Below are positions 51,634 to 57,952 of a stretch of 64,000 bases of DNA, one piece after another. This stretch comes from Halopiger aswanensis (GTDB taxonomy: Archaea > Halobacteriota > Halobacteria > Halobacteriales > Natrialbaceae), in the NCBI RefSeq assembly GCF_003610195.1, contig NZ_RAPO01000002.1, positions 744,001-808,000 of the forward strand, written 5' to 3'. A program made the position numbers and the translations under genes. The notes beneath the pieces are model-generated. The model did no database searches and was not told the DNA's origin. It was given only the letters and a program-made list of their open reading frames with translations. Position 1 is the stretch's first letter. Every line of letters begins with the position of its first letter.

Positions 51634-52980
51634 CTACTCGAGCGTCGCGATCGGTCCGCCGCGAACCCGGATCGTCACCGACTCGGTCGCGTCGTCGGGA
51701 ACCGAAACCGGCAGCGTCGTCGCCGCGCGATCCTCGTCCGCGCCGATCGGTACCGTCGTCCGTTCCTCGGCGATCTCGAGCCAGTACTCGCCCGGCGCGC
51801 CGGCGACCGTCGCGGTAGCGTCGACGGTCGCGCCCGGCCGTAATTCGCCGTCGAAGTGGAGGGCCTCGAGCGTCAGCTCGGGGGTCTCGAGGTCGACCGA
51901 GACGGTGCGGTCCAGCGTCGTCACGGAGACGGGGACGCCGTCTTCGTCCTCGTTCGGACCCTCCCGGTCGCCCTCGTCACCGGTTCCGTCCGACCCCGAT
52001 CCCGGCTCCGCGGTCAAAATCTCGACGCCCAGTTCCGCCTCGACGTTCGCGATCCGGTTACAGATCGTCTGTCGGGCCGACCCAGCAAAGAGGAGGCCGA
52101 CGAGGGTGCCGTCCTCGAGGAAGACCGGCGAGCCGCTGTCGCCGGGTTCGGACATCGGGCCGGCGACGAGTTGCTCGCGGAGCGTCACGACGCCCTGCTC
52201 GCCGAAATCGACGCGGACGCTCGCACCGGTCGCCTCGATCGGGGCGCTCGAGACGCCCGTCGTGCGACCGGTCTTCGTTACCGTCTCGCCGCGGAGGTCG
52301 GCGTAGTTCTCGCGGCGGACGCCGGTCGGCCACGCGTCCTCGAGTTCGTAGTAGGTCGCCGACTCTCGCTCGGGATCGGCCGAGCGGGCCGCGACGTCGA
52401 CGCGGACGCCGTCCTCGACGGGGACGTAGCCGACGAGATCGCCGACCCGATCGTCGCCGTCGCCGCCGTCCTCCGGCGACGGCTGGAGAACGGCCTCGCC
52501 GAGGTCGGCCGCGTTCGAGCGGGCGTAGACGTGATTGTTCGAGAGCCGAACGAGGTCGCCGGCCGCGACGTCGTCGCGCCAGACCGCACCGTCGTCGTCG
52601 GAGGCTACATCTGGGTCCTCGACCCGCGCCGGATACGGCCCGCCGGTGCCGGCCGTCGAGTTCGCGTTGATCTCGCTGACGCCGGCGGGGACGGGCCGGT
52701 GGCGGTCGGTCCGCCCGGGGGCGGCTTCGGGGACCGGCTCGAGGACCGAGAGGGCGTCGAACCCCTCGCGTTCCTCGTCGTAGCCGGAGTCGACGACCTC
52801 GACGTCCACGTCGTCGCCGGCGTCCGCGATGCGCTTCTCGACGTCGTCCTTCTCGGCCAGGCAGTCCTTCGGCCGTTTCCGAGAGACGAACACCGTGACG
52901 CGGTTGGCCTCGTCGTCGTAGTCGACGCCGATCACGTTCTCGCACTCGAGGAGGTACTCGTAGTCCTGCGTGGAGGGCAT
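51634..52980 (-). CDS. trypsin-like serine protease, cytosolic (Nal1-like)
   Basis: 448 residues from ATG 52980; no signal peptide or membrane segment. The N-terminal ~70 residues form a small alpha/beta domain (ECENVIGVDYDDEANRVTVF). The chymotrypsin-fold domain spans about 95-325 with candidate catalytic residues His150 (LSNNHVYAR), Asp195 (GVRVDVAARS) and Ser282 in SEPGDSGSPVF. KTGRTTGVSSAPIEATGA (about 236-253) resembles Nal1/nucleoporin-type members. A charged linker (325-355) leads to a beta-sandwich-like C-terminal domain (LRPGATVDATATVAGAPGEY). An intracellular trypsin-like protease is unusual for haloarchaea, which normally export theirs by Tat. Confidence 0.78.
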   Translation of the reverse strand: MPSTQDYEYLLECENVIGVDYDDEANRVTVFVSRKRPKDCLAEKDDVEKRIADAGDDVDVEVVDSGYDEEREGFDALSVLEPVPEAAPGRTDRHRPVPAGVSEINANSTAGTGGPYPARVEDPDVASDDDGAVWRDDVAAGDLVRLSNNHVYARSNAADLGEAVLQPSPEDGGDGDDRVGDLVGYVPVEDGVRVDVAARSADPERESATYYELEDAWPTGVRRENYADLRGETVTKTGRTTGVSSAPIEATGASVRVDFGEQGVVTLREQLVAGPMSEPGDSGSPVFLEDGTLVGLLFAGSARQTICNRIANVEAELGVEILTAEPGSGSDGTGDEGDREGPNEDEDGVPVSVTTLDRTVSVDLETPELTLEALHFDGELRPGATVDATATVAGAPGEYWLEIAEERTTVPIGADEDRAATTLPVSVPDDATESVTIRVRGGPIATLE

Positions 52981-53113
52981 CGCTACCGAAACCGTTCGTG
53001 TTTCCAACGGATATATCTAGGTGCTATTATATGGGGTGCGAGGCACGATCGACGGACTGTATTCAGCCCACTTATGAGGATGCCGCCCGGTCACTCGAGT
53101 AGGTGGCCACCAG

Positions 53114-53851: not shown

Positions 53852-56398
53852 CTACGAATCGTTGAGCAACGGCCACGACACGTTCGCCCCGATACAGAGC
53901 GCGCCGACAGCGACGGCAGCGGTCGCGAACAGCGGATTCAGCAGGCCGGCCGCGGCGACCGGAATCGCGATCGCGTTGTAGACCAGCGCCAGCGCGAGGT
54001 TCCGCCTGACGCGCCGCCGCGCCGCCGCCGCCAGCCGGAAGGCCCGCTCGACCGCGGACAGGTCGTCCTCGACGATCGCGAGGTCCGACGCGTCCGAGGC
54101 CAGCGCGGTGCCGCTCCCGAGCGAGATGCCCAGATCGGCCTCGGCCAGCGCCGGCGCGTCGTTGGTCCCGTCGCCGACCATCGCGACGCGTCCCTCACGC
54201 TCGAGGCGCCGGACCGCTTCGGTCTTCCCTTCGGGCGGGACACCGGCGAACACGCGGTCGACGGCGTCGTGGCCGCTGAAGAACGCTGTCGCCGCCCGCT
54301 CGTCGCCGGTCAGGACGACGACCTCGATGCCGTTCTCGTGGAGGCCCGTCACGGTCTCCGCCCAGTCGCCTCTGGGTTCGTCGCCGACCACGACGTGCCC
54401 GGCAGCGCGGCCGTTCCGGCCGACGACGATCGGCAGGTGGCCCGCCTCCCGGGCGTCGGCGAGTCGAGTCTCGAGATCGTCCTCGAGTTCCCACCCGCGC
54501 TCCCGAAAGAGGTCGGGGTGGCCGACGAGGATCGAATCGGTGTCGATACGGCCGGAGACGCCGGTGGCGTGGTTCTCGAAGTCACGGACCTCGAGGCTCG
54601 ATCCGCCGTCGGGACGGACCGCCTCGTCACCGTCGGTAGCGGATTCGCCGGTGTCACCGAACGCCCCTGCGATCGCCGTCGCCGCCGGATGGGACGCGCG
54701 TCGCTCGAGCGCCGCCGCGGCCGCTAGGAGGCCGTCTGGCGCGTCGGCCTCGAGAACGGTCATCTCGCCGGTCGTGAGCGTCCCGGTTTTGTCGAAGACG
54801 ACGACGTCGACGTCGCGGAGCCGCTCGAAGACGGTCTCGTCGAAGACGACGATGCCGTGGGCCATCGCGTCTCGGATGTTGGCGGCGACGGAGGCCGGCG
54901 TAGCGAGGCCGAGGGCCCACGGACTCGCGACCATGATCGTTAGAAGGACGGCCAGCGCGGCGGTCACGGGGTCGCCGATCCGGACGTACTGCACGGCGCC
55001 GACGACGACCGCAGCGCCGAGGACCAGCGGTGCGATCCGCACTGCGAGCGCGTCCGCGCGGCGCTGCACGCCGTGGGCGGCGCTTTGGAGGTTCCAGACG
55101 ACTTCCGTCAGCTGCTCGATGCTGCTTTCCGTCGCCGGGCCGACGTCGACGACCGCGGCGCCGTCGGTGACGACCGAACCGCCGATCACCTCGTCGCCCG
55201 ACTCCTTCGCGACCGGGAGCGACTCGCCGGTGACGACCGCCTCGTCGACCGTACATGTGCCGTCGACCAGCACCCCGTCGACGGGCACGCGCTCGCCTTC
55301 CCGGACGAGCACGCGGTCGTCCGGCTCGAGGTCCTCGACCGGAACGTCGGTCGTTCCGCCGTCGGACTCGAGCACGCGAGCCGTATCGACCTGCGAGACG
55401 GTGAGGTCGGTGAGCCGCTCGGTTGCTTGGCGCTTGATCGTCGCCTCGGCGAAGATTGCGCCCATGACGAGGGCGGCGACGACGATCGTCAGGTCGTAGT
55501 AGAGGTCGGTTCGGCCGAGGAAGAAGGAGGCAGTCCCGTAGACGTACGCGCTGACGATCGTGAGCGCGGCGAGCAGTTGCGTGTTCGGCCGGCGCAGTTT
55601 CAGGCTGACGTACGCGCCGCGCAACACCGGAAGTCCGGTCAGGTAGAGGACGACGCCGGTGACGATGGAAAACAGCGGCAGGAAGAGGAGATTGTCGAAG
55701 CCCGTAAAGGCGGTATCGTAGTAGCGCAGCGGCCCCCAGTCGGAGTAGGCCGCGAGGAACATCGGGTAGAACACCGCGGCGTAGGGCACCAACAGGAACG
55801 AGCCGAAGACGATGCCGGCGATGTACTGGATCTCGAGGAAGTCGTCGCTACGGCGCTTTCGCAGGCCCGACATCTCCCGCGCGCGGCGGGTGGCGCCCGC
55901 CTCGTCGTCGGCCGTCGCCTCCTCGCGGAGGTAGGCCGTGTAGCCGACCGTACTCAGCGCGTCGCGCAGGTCGGCCTTCGAGATGCGCTCGGGATCGTAG
56001 TCGACCCTGACGGTCTCGGTAACGTAACTCGCCGCGGCGTCGGCGACCCCGTCGCGCTGCTCGGCGACCGACTCGAGGAACGACTCGCACGTCGCGGAGT
56101 GCATCCCGTCGACGCGGAAGAAGGTACGTTCGCAGTCGTCTTCGTTTTCGAGCGCCTCGCTCTCGTCGCCGCGTTGGTCGTCGCTGCGGACTGCGTCGCC
56201 GGTATCGGCCGCTGCGGGCGCCTCGAGCGCCACGTCGATCTCGCGACAGCCGCTCGAGCAGTAGGCGTCGCCGTCCGTCGCTGCGCTCGCGTCCACCTCG
56301 TCGGCGTCCGGGTCGGCAGTAACGACCGTTGCCGGAAGCGGACGCTCGCACAGTGCACACCGCGACTCGTCGGCTCGCGCGTCCGATGACGATGCCAC
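53852..56398 (-). CDS. P1B-type heavy-metal ATPase with N-terminal cysteine domain and SPW in place of CPC
   Basis: 848 residues. Order: N-terminal CxxC-type metal domain (Cys14, 17, 47, 51), acidic linker, one HMA domain (about 92-160) whose usual CxxC is reduced to GMHSATCE (one Cys, residue 104), eight membrane segments, actuator loop VVTGESLPVAKES, phosphorylation site VFDKTGTLTTGE, nucleotide-domain HP motif (RRASHPAATAIAG) and hinge GDGTNDAPALAEA. The transmembrane metal site, CPC in copper pumps, reads MVASPWALGLATP (Ser492-Pro493-Trp494). The N-terminal arrangement recalls CcoI/FixI pumps, which supply copper to oxidases. The substrate metal is therefore open. Confidence 0.9.
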   Translation of the reverse strand: MASSSDARADESRCALCERPLPATVVTADPDADEVDASAATDGDAYCSSGCREIDVALEAPAAADTGDAVRSDDQRGDESEALENEDDCERTFFRVDGMHSATCESFLESVAEQRDGVADAAASYVTETVRVDYDPERISKADLRDALSTVGYTAYLREEATADDEAGATRRAREMSGLRKRRSDDFLEIQYIAGIVFGSFLLVPYAAVFYPMFLAAYSDWGPLRYYDTAFTGFDNLLFLPLFSIVTGVVLYLTGLPVLRGAYVSLKLRRPNTQLLAALTIVSAYVYGTASFFLGRTDLYYDLTIVVAALVMGAIFAEATIKRQATERLTDLTVSQVDTARVLESDGGTTDVPVEDLEPDDRVLVREGERVPVDGVLVDGTCTVDEAVVTGESLPVAKESGDEVIGGSVVTDGAAVVDVGPATESSIEQLTEVVWNLQSAAHGVQRRADALAVRIAPLVLGAAVVVGAVQYVRIGDPVTAALAVLLTIMVASPWALGLATPASVAANIRDAMAHGIVVFDETVFERLRDVDVVVFDKTGTLTTGEMTVLEADAPDGLLAAAAALERRASHPAATAIAGAFGDTGESATDGDEAVRPDGGSSLEVRDFENHATGVSGRIDTDSILVGHPDLFRERGWELEDDLETRLADAREAGHLPIVVGRNGRAAGHVVVGDEPRGDWAETVTGLHENGIEVVVLTGDERAATAFFSGHDAVDRVFAGVPPEGKTEAVRRLEREGRVAMVGDGTNDAPALAEADLGISLGSGTALASDASDLAIVEDDLSAVERAFRLAAAARRRVRRNLALALVYNAIAIPVAAAGLLNPLFATAAVAVGALCIGANVSWPLLNDS

Positions 56399-56485: not shown

Positions 56486-57952
56486 TCACTCGGCGACGGG
56501 TTCGCCGTCAGCGTCGGTCGGCTCCGGCGCCTCGGCTTCCGAGTCGGGATCGGCCCTCCCCTCGTCGACGATCGCCTCCTTCCACGTCCCGCGGGTAAAC
56601 CACGCGACGGCTGCGGTCGCGCCCGCGACGTCGCCGAGGACGACCGCCGTCCAGATGCCGGTCGTCCCCCAGCCGGCGACGAAGATCAAGTAGTAGGCGA
56701 GCGGGATACGGACGATCCAGAGGCCGAAGACGGCGAATGCCAGCGCCGTCTTCGTGTTTCCGGCGCCGCGGAACGCCCCCTGAATGACCTGCAGAACGCC
56801 CATGAAGACGAACATGAACGCGGCGAACCGGAGGTACGTCGAACCGTACGCGATCGTCGCTGCGCGTCCTTCCTCCTCGGCCGTGACGAACACCGAGACG
56901 AACGGCTCCGGAAAGAGGAAGGCGAACAGCCCGGCGACGGCCATGATCGCCGCGACGACGCCGGCGCCGAGCCAGGTCGCCCGCTCCGCGCGGTCCGGTC
57001 GGTCAGCCCCGAGGTTCTGCCCAACGATCGAGTCTATCGCCTGTCCCATCCCCATCGCGGGGAGGAACGCCAACGAGATCAGCCGGTTGCCAAGCCCGTA
57101 GGCCGCGACGACCGGCGGCGGGAACGTGACGACCATCGCCGTCATCCCCGTCAGCGCCAGCGCCGTCATCGACTGCTCGAGCGACGTCGGCACGCCCAGT
57201 CGGATGATCTCGCGGACGTACTCCAGGCGCGGCCGGAGGTGGTCGGCTCGAATGTCCGGCCCGACGTCGGTGTAGTACAGCAGGTAGAACCCGATCGCCG
57301 TCGCGATCGCTCTCGAGAAGGCGGTCGCCAGCGCGGCGCCGGCCATCTCGAGGCGCGGCAGCGGGCCGACGCCGAAGATCAGCAGCGGGTCGATGACGAC
57401 GTTGATCAGGACGCTGACGAACATCACGCGCATCGGCGCGCGGGTGTTGCCGTAGCCCCGCATGAGCGAGACGAACACGAAGAAGCCGAAAACGAACGGC
57501 AGCCCGAGGAAGAAGATCCGCAGGTACTCCGCGGCCAGCGGGATGATCGCCGCCTGCGTGTCGGCGTCCGCGGGCAGGACCGAGAGCATCGGCTCGGTGG
57601 CGACGTAGCCTACGATACCGAGGCCGATCGCGACCAGCGAGACGAACGAGATCGTCTGTCCGGCGATCAGGCCACCCTCACCGCTCTCGGCGCCGGTGTG
57701 CTGGGCGACCAGGATCGCGCCGGCGGTCGTGAAGCCGCCGCCGACGGCGATCAGCAGGAAGAGCAGCGGAAAGGCGAGGCTGATCGCGCCGACGGCGTCG
57801 GGCGACAGCGCGCCGAGCCAGAAGGTGTCGCCGACGTTGTACGCGACCTGCAGCAACTGAATGACGACCAGCGGCCACGCCAACTCGAACATCGGTCGGA
57901 CGAGAGAGCCCTCGGTCAGCTTCCCCTCGTCCGCTACTCCACCGGACGACAT
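56486..57952 (-). CDS. MATE family efflux transporter
   Basis: 488 residues, twelve predicted membrane segments. The N-terminal half begins LVRPMFELAWPLVVIQLLQV, contains DTFWLGALSPDAVGAISLAF and ends near residue 215. The second half starts with IIRLGVPTSLEQSMTALAL and includes AYGLGNRLISLAFLPAMGMG and SIVGQNLGADRPDRAE, which mirrors the AQHTGAESGEG of the first half. The C-terminal 40 residues are an acidic cytoplasmic tail. Exports cationic compounds in exchange for Na+ or H+; the substrate is unknown. Stop lies 87 bp before the P-type ATPase start on the same strand. Confidence 0.92.
   Translation of the reverse strand: MSSGGVADEGKLTEGSLVRPMFELAWPLVVIQLLQVAYNVGDTFWLGALSPDAVGAISLAFPLLFLLIAVGGGFTTAGAILVAQHTGAESGEGGLIAGQTISFVSLVAIGLGIVGYVATEPMLSVLPADADTQAAIIPLAAEYLRIFFLGLPFVFGFFVFVSLMRGYGNTRAPMRVMFVSVLINVVIDPLLIFGVGPLPRLEMAGAALATAFSRAIATAIGFYLLYYTDVGPDIRADHLRPRLEYVREIIRLGVPTSLEQSMTALALTGMTAMVVTFPPPVVAAYGLGNRLISLAFLPAMGMGQAIDSIVGQNLGADRPDRAERATWLGAGVVAAIMAVAGLFAFLFPEPFVSVFVTAEEEGRAATIAYGSTYLRFAAFMFVFMGVLQVIQGAFRGAGNTKTALAFAVFGLWIVRIPLAYYLIFVAGWGTTGIWTAVVLGDVAGATAAVAWFTRGTWKEAIVDEGRADPDSEAEAPEPTDADGEPVAE

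Follow-up and report, generated by a model that had tools for sequence, protein, structure and literature searches.

The classes of P1B-type pumps are told apart by the residues at the metal site in their membrane part, and members are found in which these residues have been replaced. Such a case lies in a 64,000-nucleotide stretch of the Halopiger aswanensis genome (contig NZ_RAPO01000002.1, positions 744,001 to 808,000), which is referred to below, as a whole, as the window. A sequence-only reading of this DNA had noticed an ATPase with Ser-Pro-Trp in the membrane site, and had proposed an active pump with changed selectivity, or else a cofactor or non-metal role.

A P1B-type ATPase with Ser-Pro-Trp in its membrane site

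Coordinates and motifs of the gene are collected in Table 1. As the sequence-only reading had it, the membrane site holds no cysteine, the HMA domain has lost one of its two cysteines, and all ATPase motifs (DKTGT, TGES, HP, GDGTNDAP) are present. The N-terminal domain, which was described as intact, is so only in part: C14xxC17 and C47/C51 remain, but a CC doublet has become YCS, Ser48 standing for the fifth N-terminal cysteine of the CPC-bearing paralogues. This domain resembles PF12156, which three of four tested CPC paralogues match weakly, below cutoff. It is followed by the HMA domain and by eight predicted membrane helices with the A, P and N domains.

Table 1. Features of the ATPase gene and of its upstream neighbour (window coordinates; residue numbers are those of the window protein unless stated)
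Feature	Position	Strand	Basis or remark
xPW P1B-type ATPase gene, 848 aa, GTG start	53852..56398	-	uninterrupted frame
N-terminal CxxC...CxxxC domain (C14, C17, C47, C51)	56246..56359	-
HMA domain, GMHSATC, Cys101 replaced by Ser, Cys104 kept	55940..56119	-	PF00403, 43.3 bits, and alignment
Thr273, position of the Cu+ entry Met (M158 of AfCopA)	55580..55582	-	AfCopA alignment
Cys382, actuator domain	55253..55255	-	65/65 xPW vs 1/47 CPC
TGES phosphatase motif	55220..55231	-	TGES 62, TGEN 2, TGEA 1 of 65 xPW
Ser492-Pro493-Trp494, M4	54917..54925	-	codons AGT CCG TGG (54925-54917); Trp in 65/65
DKTGT phosphorylation motif	54779..54793	-	65/65 xPW
HP motif, nucleotide domain	54686..54691	-	65/65 xPW
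GDGTND motif	54158..54175	-	65/65 xPW; window protein reads GDGTNDAP
Leu803, M5; Trp in every CPC paralogue	53990..53992	-	Trp in 47/47 CPC, 0/65 xPW
Tyr807-Asn808, M5, kept	53975..53980	-	65/65 xPW
M6 stretch, MxxSS replaced by VxxGA	53900..53914	-	MxxSS in 0/65 xPW, 47/47 CPC
MATE efflux transporter, directly upstream of the ATPase, 87 bp gap	56486..57952	-	TIGR00797, 235.8 bits

Profile models place the protein in the P1B family, but below the threshold for copper pumps. The window protein passed TIGR01525, the heavy-metal P-type model (406.3 bits, cutoff 346.25), and failed TIGR01511, the Cu-ATPase model (356.5 bits, cutoff 397). Four tested proteins with Trp in M4, the window protein included, all fell below this second cutoff (331-373 bits), and four tested CPC paralogues passed it (426-440 bits). 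An AlphaFold2 model of the window protein (pLDDT 83.8, from 62 sequences) has the P1B fold, matching 4umv with a Z score of 27.6 and 3rfu with 26.6 (rmsd 6.8, 622 residues aligned), and keeps the break of helix M4 at residues 492-495, which is the site of SPW. The marks of the P1B family are thus found (TIGR01525, the DKTGT, HP, TGE and GDGxND motifs, the fold with a broken M4). Those of P1B-1 are reduced to YN in M5, CPC, MxxSS, the entry Met and a TIGR01511 match being absent, and SPC in M4, the mark of P1B-4, is replaced by SPW. With respect to the N-terminal sites of the CopA2/FixI/CcoI type, the window protein has four of five cysteines in the first domain and one of two in HMA.

The Trp is the invariant of a haloarchaeal clade

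Scanning of public genomes gave 80 loci, every one from haloarchaea, and addition of loci from further genomes and annotated plasmids gave 112 distinct proteins for alignment. The maximum likelihood tree of these 112 rows (quick mode, midpoint root for drawing) left out sequences below 480 bits, L081, which is the window itself, L086, which is contained in L084, the contig-end fragments L063, L070 and L073, and exact duplicates (119 reduced to 112). All 65 Trp-bearing proteins fell into one clade, with an SH-aLRT support of 100: 50 read SPW, 8 CPW, 4 TPW and 3 APW, hence the name xPW used here. The remaining 47 proteins are CPC, and none has Trp at the position of Trp494. Some branches within the xPW clade exceed one change per site, and yet the Trp is kept throughout. 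Since it is found in 65/65 proteins with a varied first residue, the invariant is Pro-Trp preceded by a small residue. Conservation of SPW among homologues, which was to be checked, therefore takes a wider form: the signature is xPW, accompanied by loss of the M6 MxxSS and of the entry Met, and SPW is its commonest version. None of the 65 orthologues has CPC or SPC, a finding that would have pointed to a point mutation or a sequence error, as Cys stands at the second CPC-Cys position in 0/65. A protein from another genome of the window's genus (L093), 92% identical to the window protein, is also SPW; together with the 65-member clade, it rules out a sequencing error or a recent mutation. Twelve extra sequences, high-scoring but mostly missed by the DNA pattern, or divergent, comprised 11 xPW proteins and one member of the CPC group (L139).

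The spread of the family was surveyed with a pattern joining PW to DKTGT. It was found in 125/391 haloarchaeal genomes and 35/86 genera, and, by our own count of the survey rows, in 79/101 genomes of the window's family; these figures are a lower bound, at least nine more xPW carriers of that family having been missed. In a sample of the phylum, 19 genomes out of 294 were positive, all of them from the window's class, which contributed 53, and none of the 241 sampled genomes outside that class had the pattern. Some genomes (G036, G130) carry two or three xPW genes, with three pattern matches on two contigs in G036. By their sequences, xPW proteins form a family of haloarchaeal paralogues nested among CopA2/FixI-like, CPC-type pumps.

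The residues of the Cu+ route are lost together

The Cu+ residues of AfCopA, as given in the available part of PMC9433437, are the entry M158 with C380 and C382, the acidic E205 and D336, Y682 and N683, and M711, S714 and S715 (the MxxSS residues). Their equivalents were deduced from an alignment with the AfCopA chain (numbering offset 14) and with the CPC paralogues. At the entry, M158 is replaced by Thr in 60, Ala in 3 and Ser in 2 of the 65 xPW proteins, never by Met, which is present in 45/47 CPC proteins. The C380 equivalent is Ser492, with no Cys at this place in 57/65, and that of C382 is Trp494 in all 65, where CPC proteins have Cys in 47/47. The M711 equivalent, Val829 in the window protein, is Met in 0/65, and what is left of the serine pair is an isolated Ser, at S714 in 17 proteins and at S715 in 6. 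Outside the membrane, the first HMA cysteine (Cys101) is gone in 61/65, and N-terminal Cys48, present in 47/47 CPC proteins, has become Ser in 59/65; the other N-terminal cysteines are mostly retained, the CxxC being lost in some members. A general loss of cysteines in haloarchaea is ruled out, as the CPC paralogues of these organisms keep the same residues in 47/47. Four CPW proteins retain both HMA cysteines, which counts against the non-copper reading proposed below. We conclude, at the level of sequence, that the Cu+ permeation route has been lost in concert (entry Met, second CPC Cys, M5 Trp and MxxSS).

Other residues are kept. The Y682 and N683 equivalents are present in 65/65, that of E205 in 64/65 and that of D336 in 55/65; in the numbering of the window protein, Asp302 is found in 65/65 and Glu318 in 64/65, and Asp449 is replaced by Asn, Glu or Tyr in 10/65. 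A further xPW protein (L141), outside the 65-row set, has FN where all other xPW proteins seen have the M5 YN. Residues that have become invariant in the family are Cys382 of the actuator domain and, within helix MA, Tyr192, Phe198 and Phe201. No new conserved charged membrane residue has been gained relative to CPC proteins, so that a new binding site is not visible, which counts against a new substrate.

Could the kept residues serve a metal? Pumping of another metal through the O and N ligands Asp302, Glu318, Asp449, Tyr807 and Asn808 would account for their conservation in xPW, but Asp449 varies in the ten proteins mentioned, and the CPC paralogues conserve all five residues equally, which does not speak for a new selectivity. 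We hold this explanation to be quite improbable. Persistence of Cu+ or Ag+ export, with the ion capped through a cation-pi contact with the Trp and surrounded by O and N ligands, is somewhat easier to defend and still unlikely. CusF is a known case of Cu(I) capped by Trp, and this precedent, the retention of Tyr807, Asn808 and most acidic residues, and the copper islands around some xPW members (see below) all go in its direction. Opposed to it are the want of a conserved Met or Cys ligand to complete the site, the absence of any gained charged or His residue, and the presence in the same genome of three like CPC paralogues and a CopA. In addition, Ala substitutions in the CPC, YN or MxxSS residues of AfCopA impair Cu+ binding, according to the available part of PMC9433437.

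An intact catalytic engine and purifying selection

The DKTGT, HP, TGD, GDGTND and TGE motifs are each found in 65/65 xPW proteins, in which 109 positions are invariant. Two xPW proteins outside the 65-row set (L136 and L137) read TGDS rather than TGES, the catalytic Glu being replaced by Asp. Ratios of dN/dS, computed after Nei and Gojobori with our own script, were 0.16 between the window gene and its nearest relative, L093; 14 xPW pairs gave 0.11-0.39, and 5 CPC pairs gave 0.10-0.26. Values well below 1, like those of the CPC pairs, indicate purifying selection and not decay. That xPW is a decaying pseudo-pump, as erosion of the N-terminal cysteines in several lineages, TGDS in L136/L137 and TGEN or TGEA in three others might suggest, is thus very improbable: the frames are open, the other catalytic motifs are complete, and the gene is retained in the 125 haloarchaeal genomes counted above.

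Genomic surroundings

Downstream of the window ATPase lies a convergent phosphoribosyltransferase gene, with ThiC, MTAP-like and ScpA genes further away. Between ThiC and the phosphoribosyltransferase, a protein with a trypsin-like peptidase domain, below the Pfam cutoff, is encoded at 51634-53007. No copper genes were found near the window ATPase. Neighbours of the other loci were called with our own codon-usage script, 5 loci without an ATPase call being left out of the lists. No single conserved partner gene of xPW emerged from these neighbour lists, and the genes at -1 and +1 vary by lineage (MATE, MFS, Ycf48/BNR-like, GNAT, RimK-like, ATP-grasp, sulfatase). The sulfatase, found at 13 loci and absent from the window, looks like synteny within Natrialbaceae, and a link with it was rejected. 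A MATE gene adjoins 6/48 loci of the window's clade (window counted) and an MFS transporter gene 17/48, always on the same strand; neither is present at 25/48, many loci having merely 1-1.5 kb of flank. Beside CPC paralogues, no MATE or MFS gene was found (0/47 loci). This adjacency may be family-level synteny.

A search for copper and oxidase genes took in 71 of the 80 loci, 31 of them xPW and 40 CPC. Where each flank was 5 kb or longer, such genes were found near 8/23 xPW and 17/27 CPC loci, in a survey that favours near relatives of three xPW islands (L122, L123 and L126), from which its copper reference proteins were taken. In the xPW island of Haloarcula marismortui pNG600 are CopB-like and CopA-like ATPases, HMA proteins, plastocyanin, a multicopper oxidase and CtaA. 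On Halorubrum salinarum pHAR02, coxB and the gene for oxidase subunit I adjoin the xPW gene, and the island of Natronorubrum daqingense encodes SCO, TlpA, CcdA and a 4Fe-4S protein. A haem-copper oxidase context, raised in the sequence-only reading, is therefore seen at some loci of side branches of the family and absent from the window's own clade, where 0/11 loci with such flanks had copper or oxidase genes. Islands of this kind in other xPW branches and at many CPC loci make a copper ancestry of xPW most likely; the branch to which the window protein belongs no longer lies in copper surroundings. A TauE/SafE-family gene stands directly beside six CPC paralogues (L033, L035, L038, L049, L055 and L129); no such gene turned up around those xPW genes that were inspected.

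These data bear on a further explanation, in which xPW would be a non-transporting accessory ATPase of the copper and haem-copper-oxidase pathway, either a Cu+ sensor through its N-terminal sites or a partner of a CPC pump, with the phosphorylation cycle as a switch. The three islands, the 8/23 loci and the mostly kept N-terminal cysteines are in keeping with such a role. Less easily explained by it are the window's clade, with its 0/11 loci, the loss of HMA Cys101 in 61/65 proteins, and that of the N-terminal CxxC in some members. We consider it possible, though doubtful.

A Cu+ route probably abandoned, possibly for another substrate

Replacement of the copper-binding residues with an intact ATP engine suggests that xPW probably moves something other than copper. 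We propose that it is a catalytically competent ATPase in which the P1B-1 Cu+ route has been abandoned, most probably in favour of another substrate that is not thiophilic, and give this proposal about an even chance. What has been lost coincides with Cu+ ligands reported for AfCopA in the available part of PMC9433437, which supports an abandoned Cu+ route. Moreover, CPC and the N-M-S site are described as conserved and required for Cu transport and export in the available part of PMC8475189, which makes Cu+ transport by the known route unlikely for xPW. The co-directional MATE and MFS genes beside loci of the window's clade also count in favour of the proposal; the copper islands, found in other xPW branches, count against a non-copper reading.

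The enzyme would run through the ordinary P-type cycle, E1-E1P-E2P-E2. The M4 kink would present an aromatic and hydroxyl pocket (Trp494, Tyr807, Asn808, Ser492) without a thiol trap, and a pocket of this kind would suit a substrate that is not thiophilic (a cation, hard or organic, or else an amphiphile), bound near the kink without need of thiol ligands. Transport would probably be outward. As for the active pump of changed selectivity proposed at the outset, its catalytic integrity and the loss of metal thiols stand, and a change of selectivity is likely from the sequences.

More speculatively, a P1B lineage may have gone off metals altogether, as an ATP-driven exporter whose aromatic Trp/Tyr/Asn pocket would take up an amphiphile or organic cation, the P1B counterpart of P5B polyamine and P4 lipid pumps. 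This idea, for which we would claim a minor chance, draws on analogy; the lineage has been seen so far in haloarchaea only, with MATE or MFS genes beside about half of the main-clade loci. P4 and P5 ATPases are P-type pumps with non-metal substrates (PMC10654040, in its available part) but belong to other families, xPW matching P1B models and having an HMA domain and the P1B fold.

Relation to known pumps

The closest counterparts are the haloarchaeal CPC paralogues, three of which (L082, L083 and L084) are encoded in the window's genome along with a CopA and a CPH pump. They share with the window protein its layout, its catalytic motifs and 41-47% identity; unlike xPW, they have CPC, MxxSS and the M5 Trp in 47/47 and the entry Met in 45/47, those tested pass TIGR01511, and they often stand beside TauE/SafE or plastocyanin genes. 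The same genome encodes a P-type ATPase (L087, G000:C2:294820-296400, a 634-aa frame) with CPG in M4 (GCPGALVIGPP), which likewise deviates from the usual motifs of the metal site. P1B-1 pumps of the CopA2/FixI/CcoI type also have two N-terminal metal sites ahead of the core, which the window protein keeps in part. CcoI delivers Cu to an oxidase, and oxidase genes stand close to some xPW genes, but xPW has neither CPC nor the N-M-S site. The likeness to AfCopA and LpCopA extends to the fold and to the E205, D336, Y682 and N683 equivalents, those of M158, C380 (except in CPW proteins), C382, M711 and the S714/S715 pair being lost. With P1B-4 pumps (SPC), the window motif shares Ser-Pro at its first two positions, but the third is Trp and not Cys, and in the tree it is CPC proteins that stand closest.

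In the open-licence literature searched, no mention of SPW, CPW, TPW or APW in a P-type ATPase was found, nor any description of the xPW family by title or abstract start. P1B-7 is given as 'substrate unknown' in the available part of PMC7558416; xPW may overlap with that class, and is not claimed as a new numbered P1B class.

The labels 'cation' or 'heavy metal translocating P-type ATPase' carried by xPW genes in public records are unsupported, which calls for caution with automatic annotation. The family is stable and widespread, and has kept its engine and deleted its metal site in genomes that hold intact paralogues. It thus offers a test case, set up by nature, for asking which residues determine selectivity and if a metal pump can be redirected to a different substrate.
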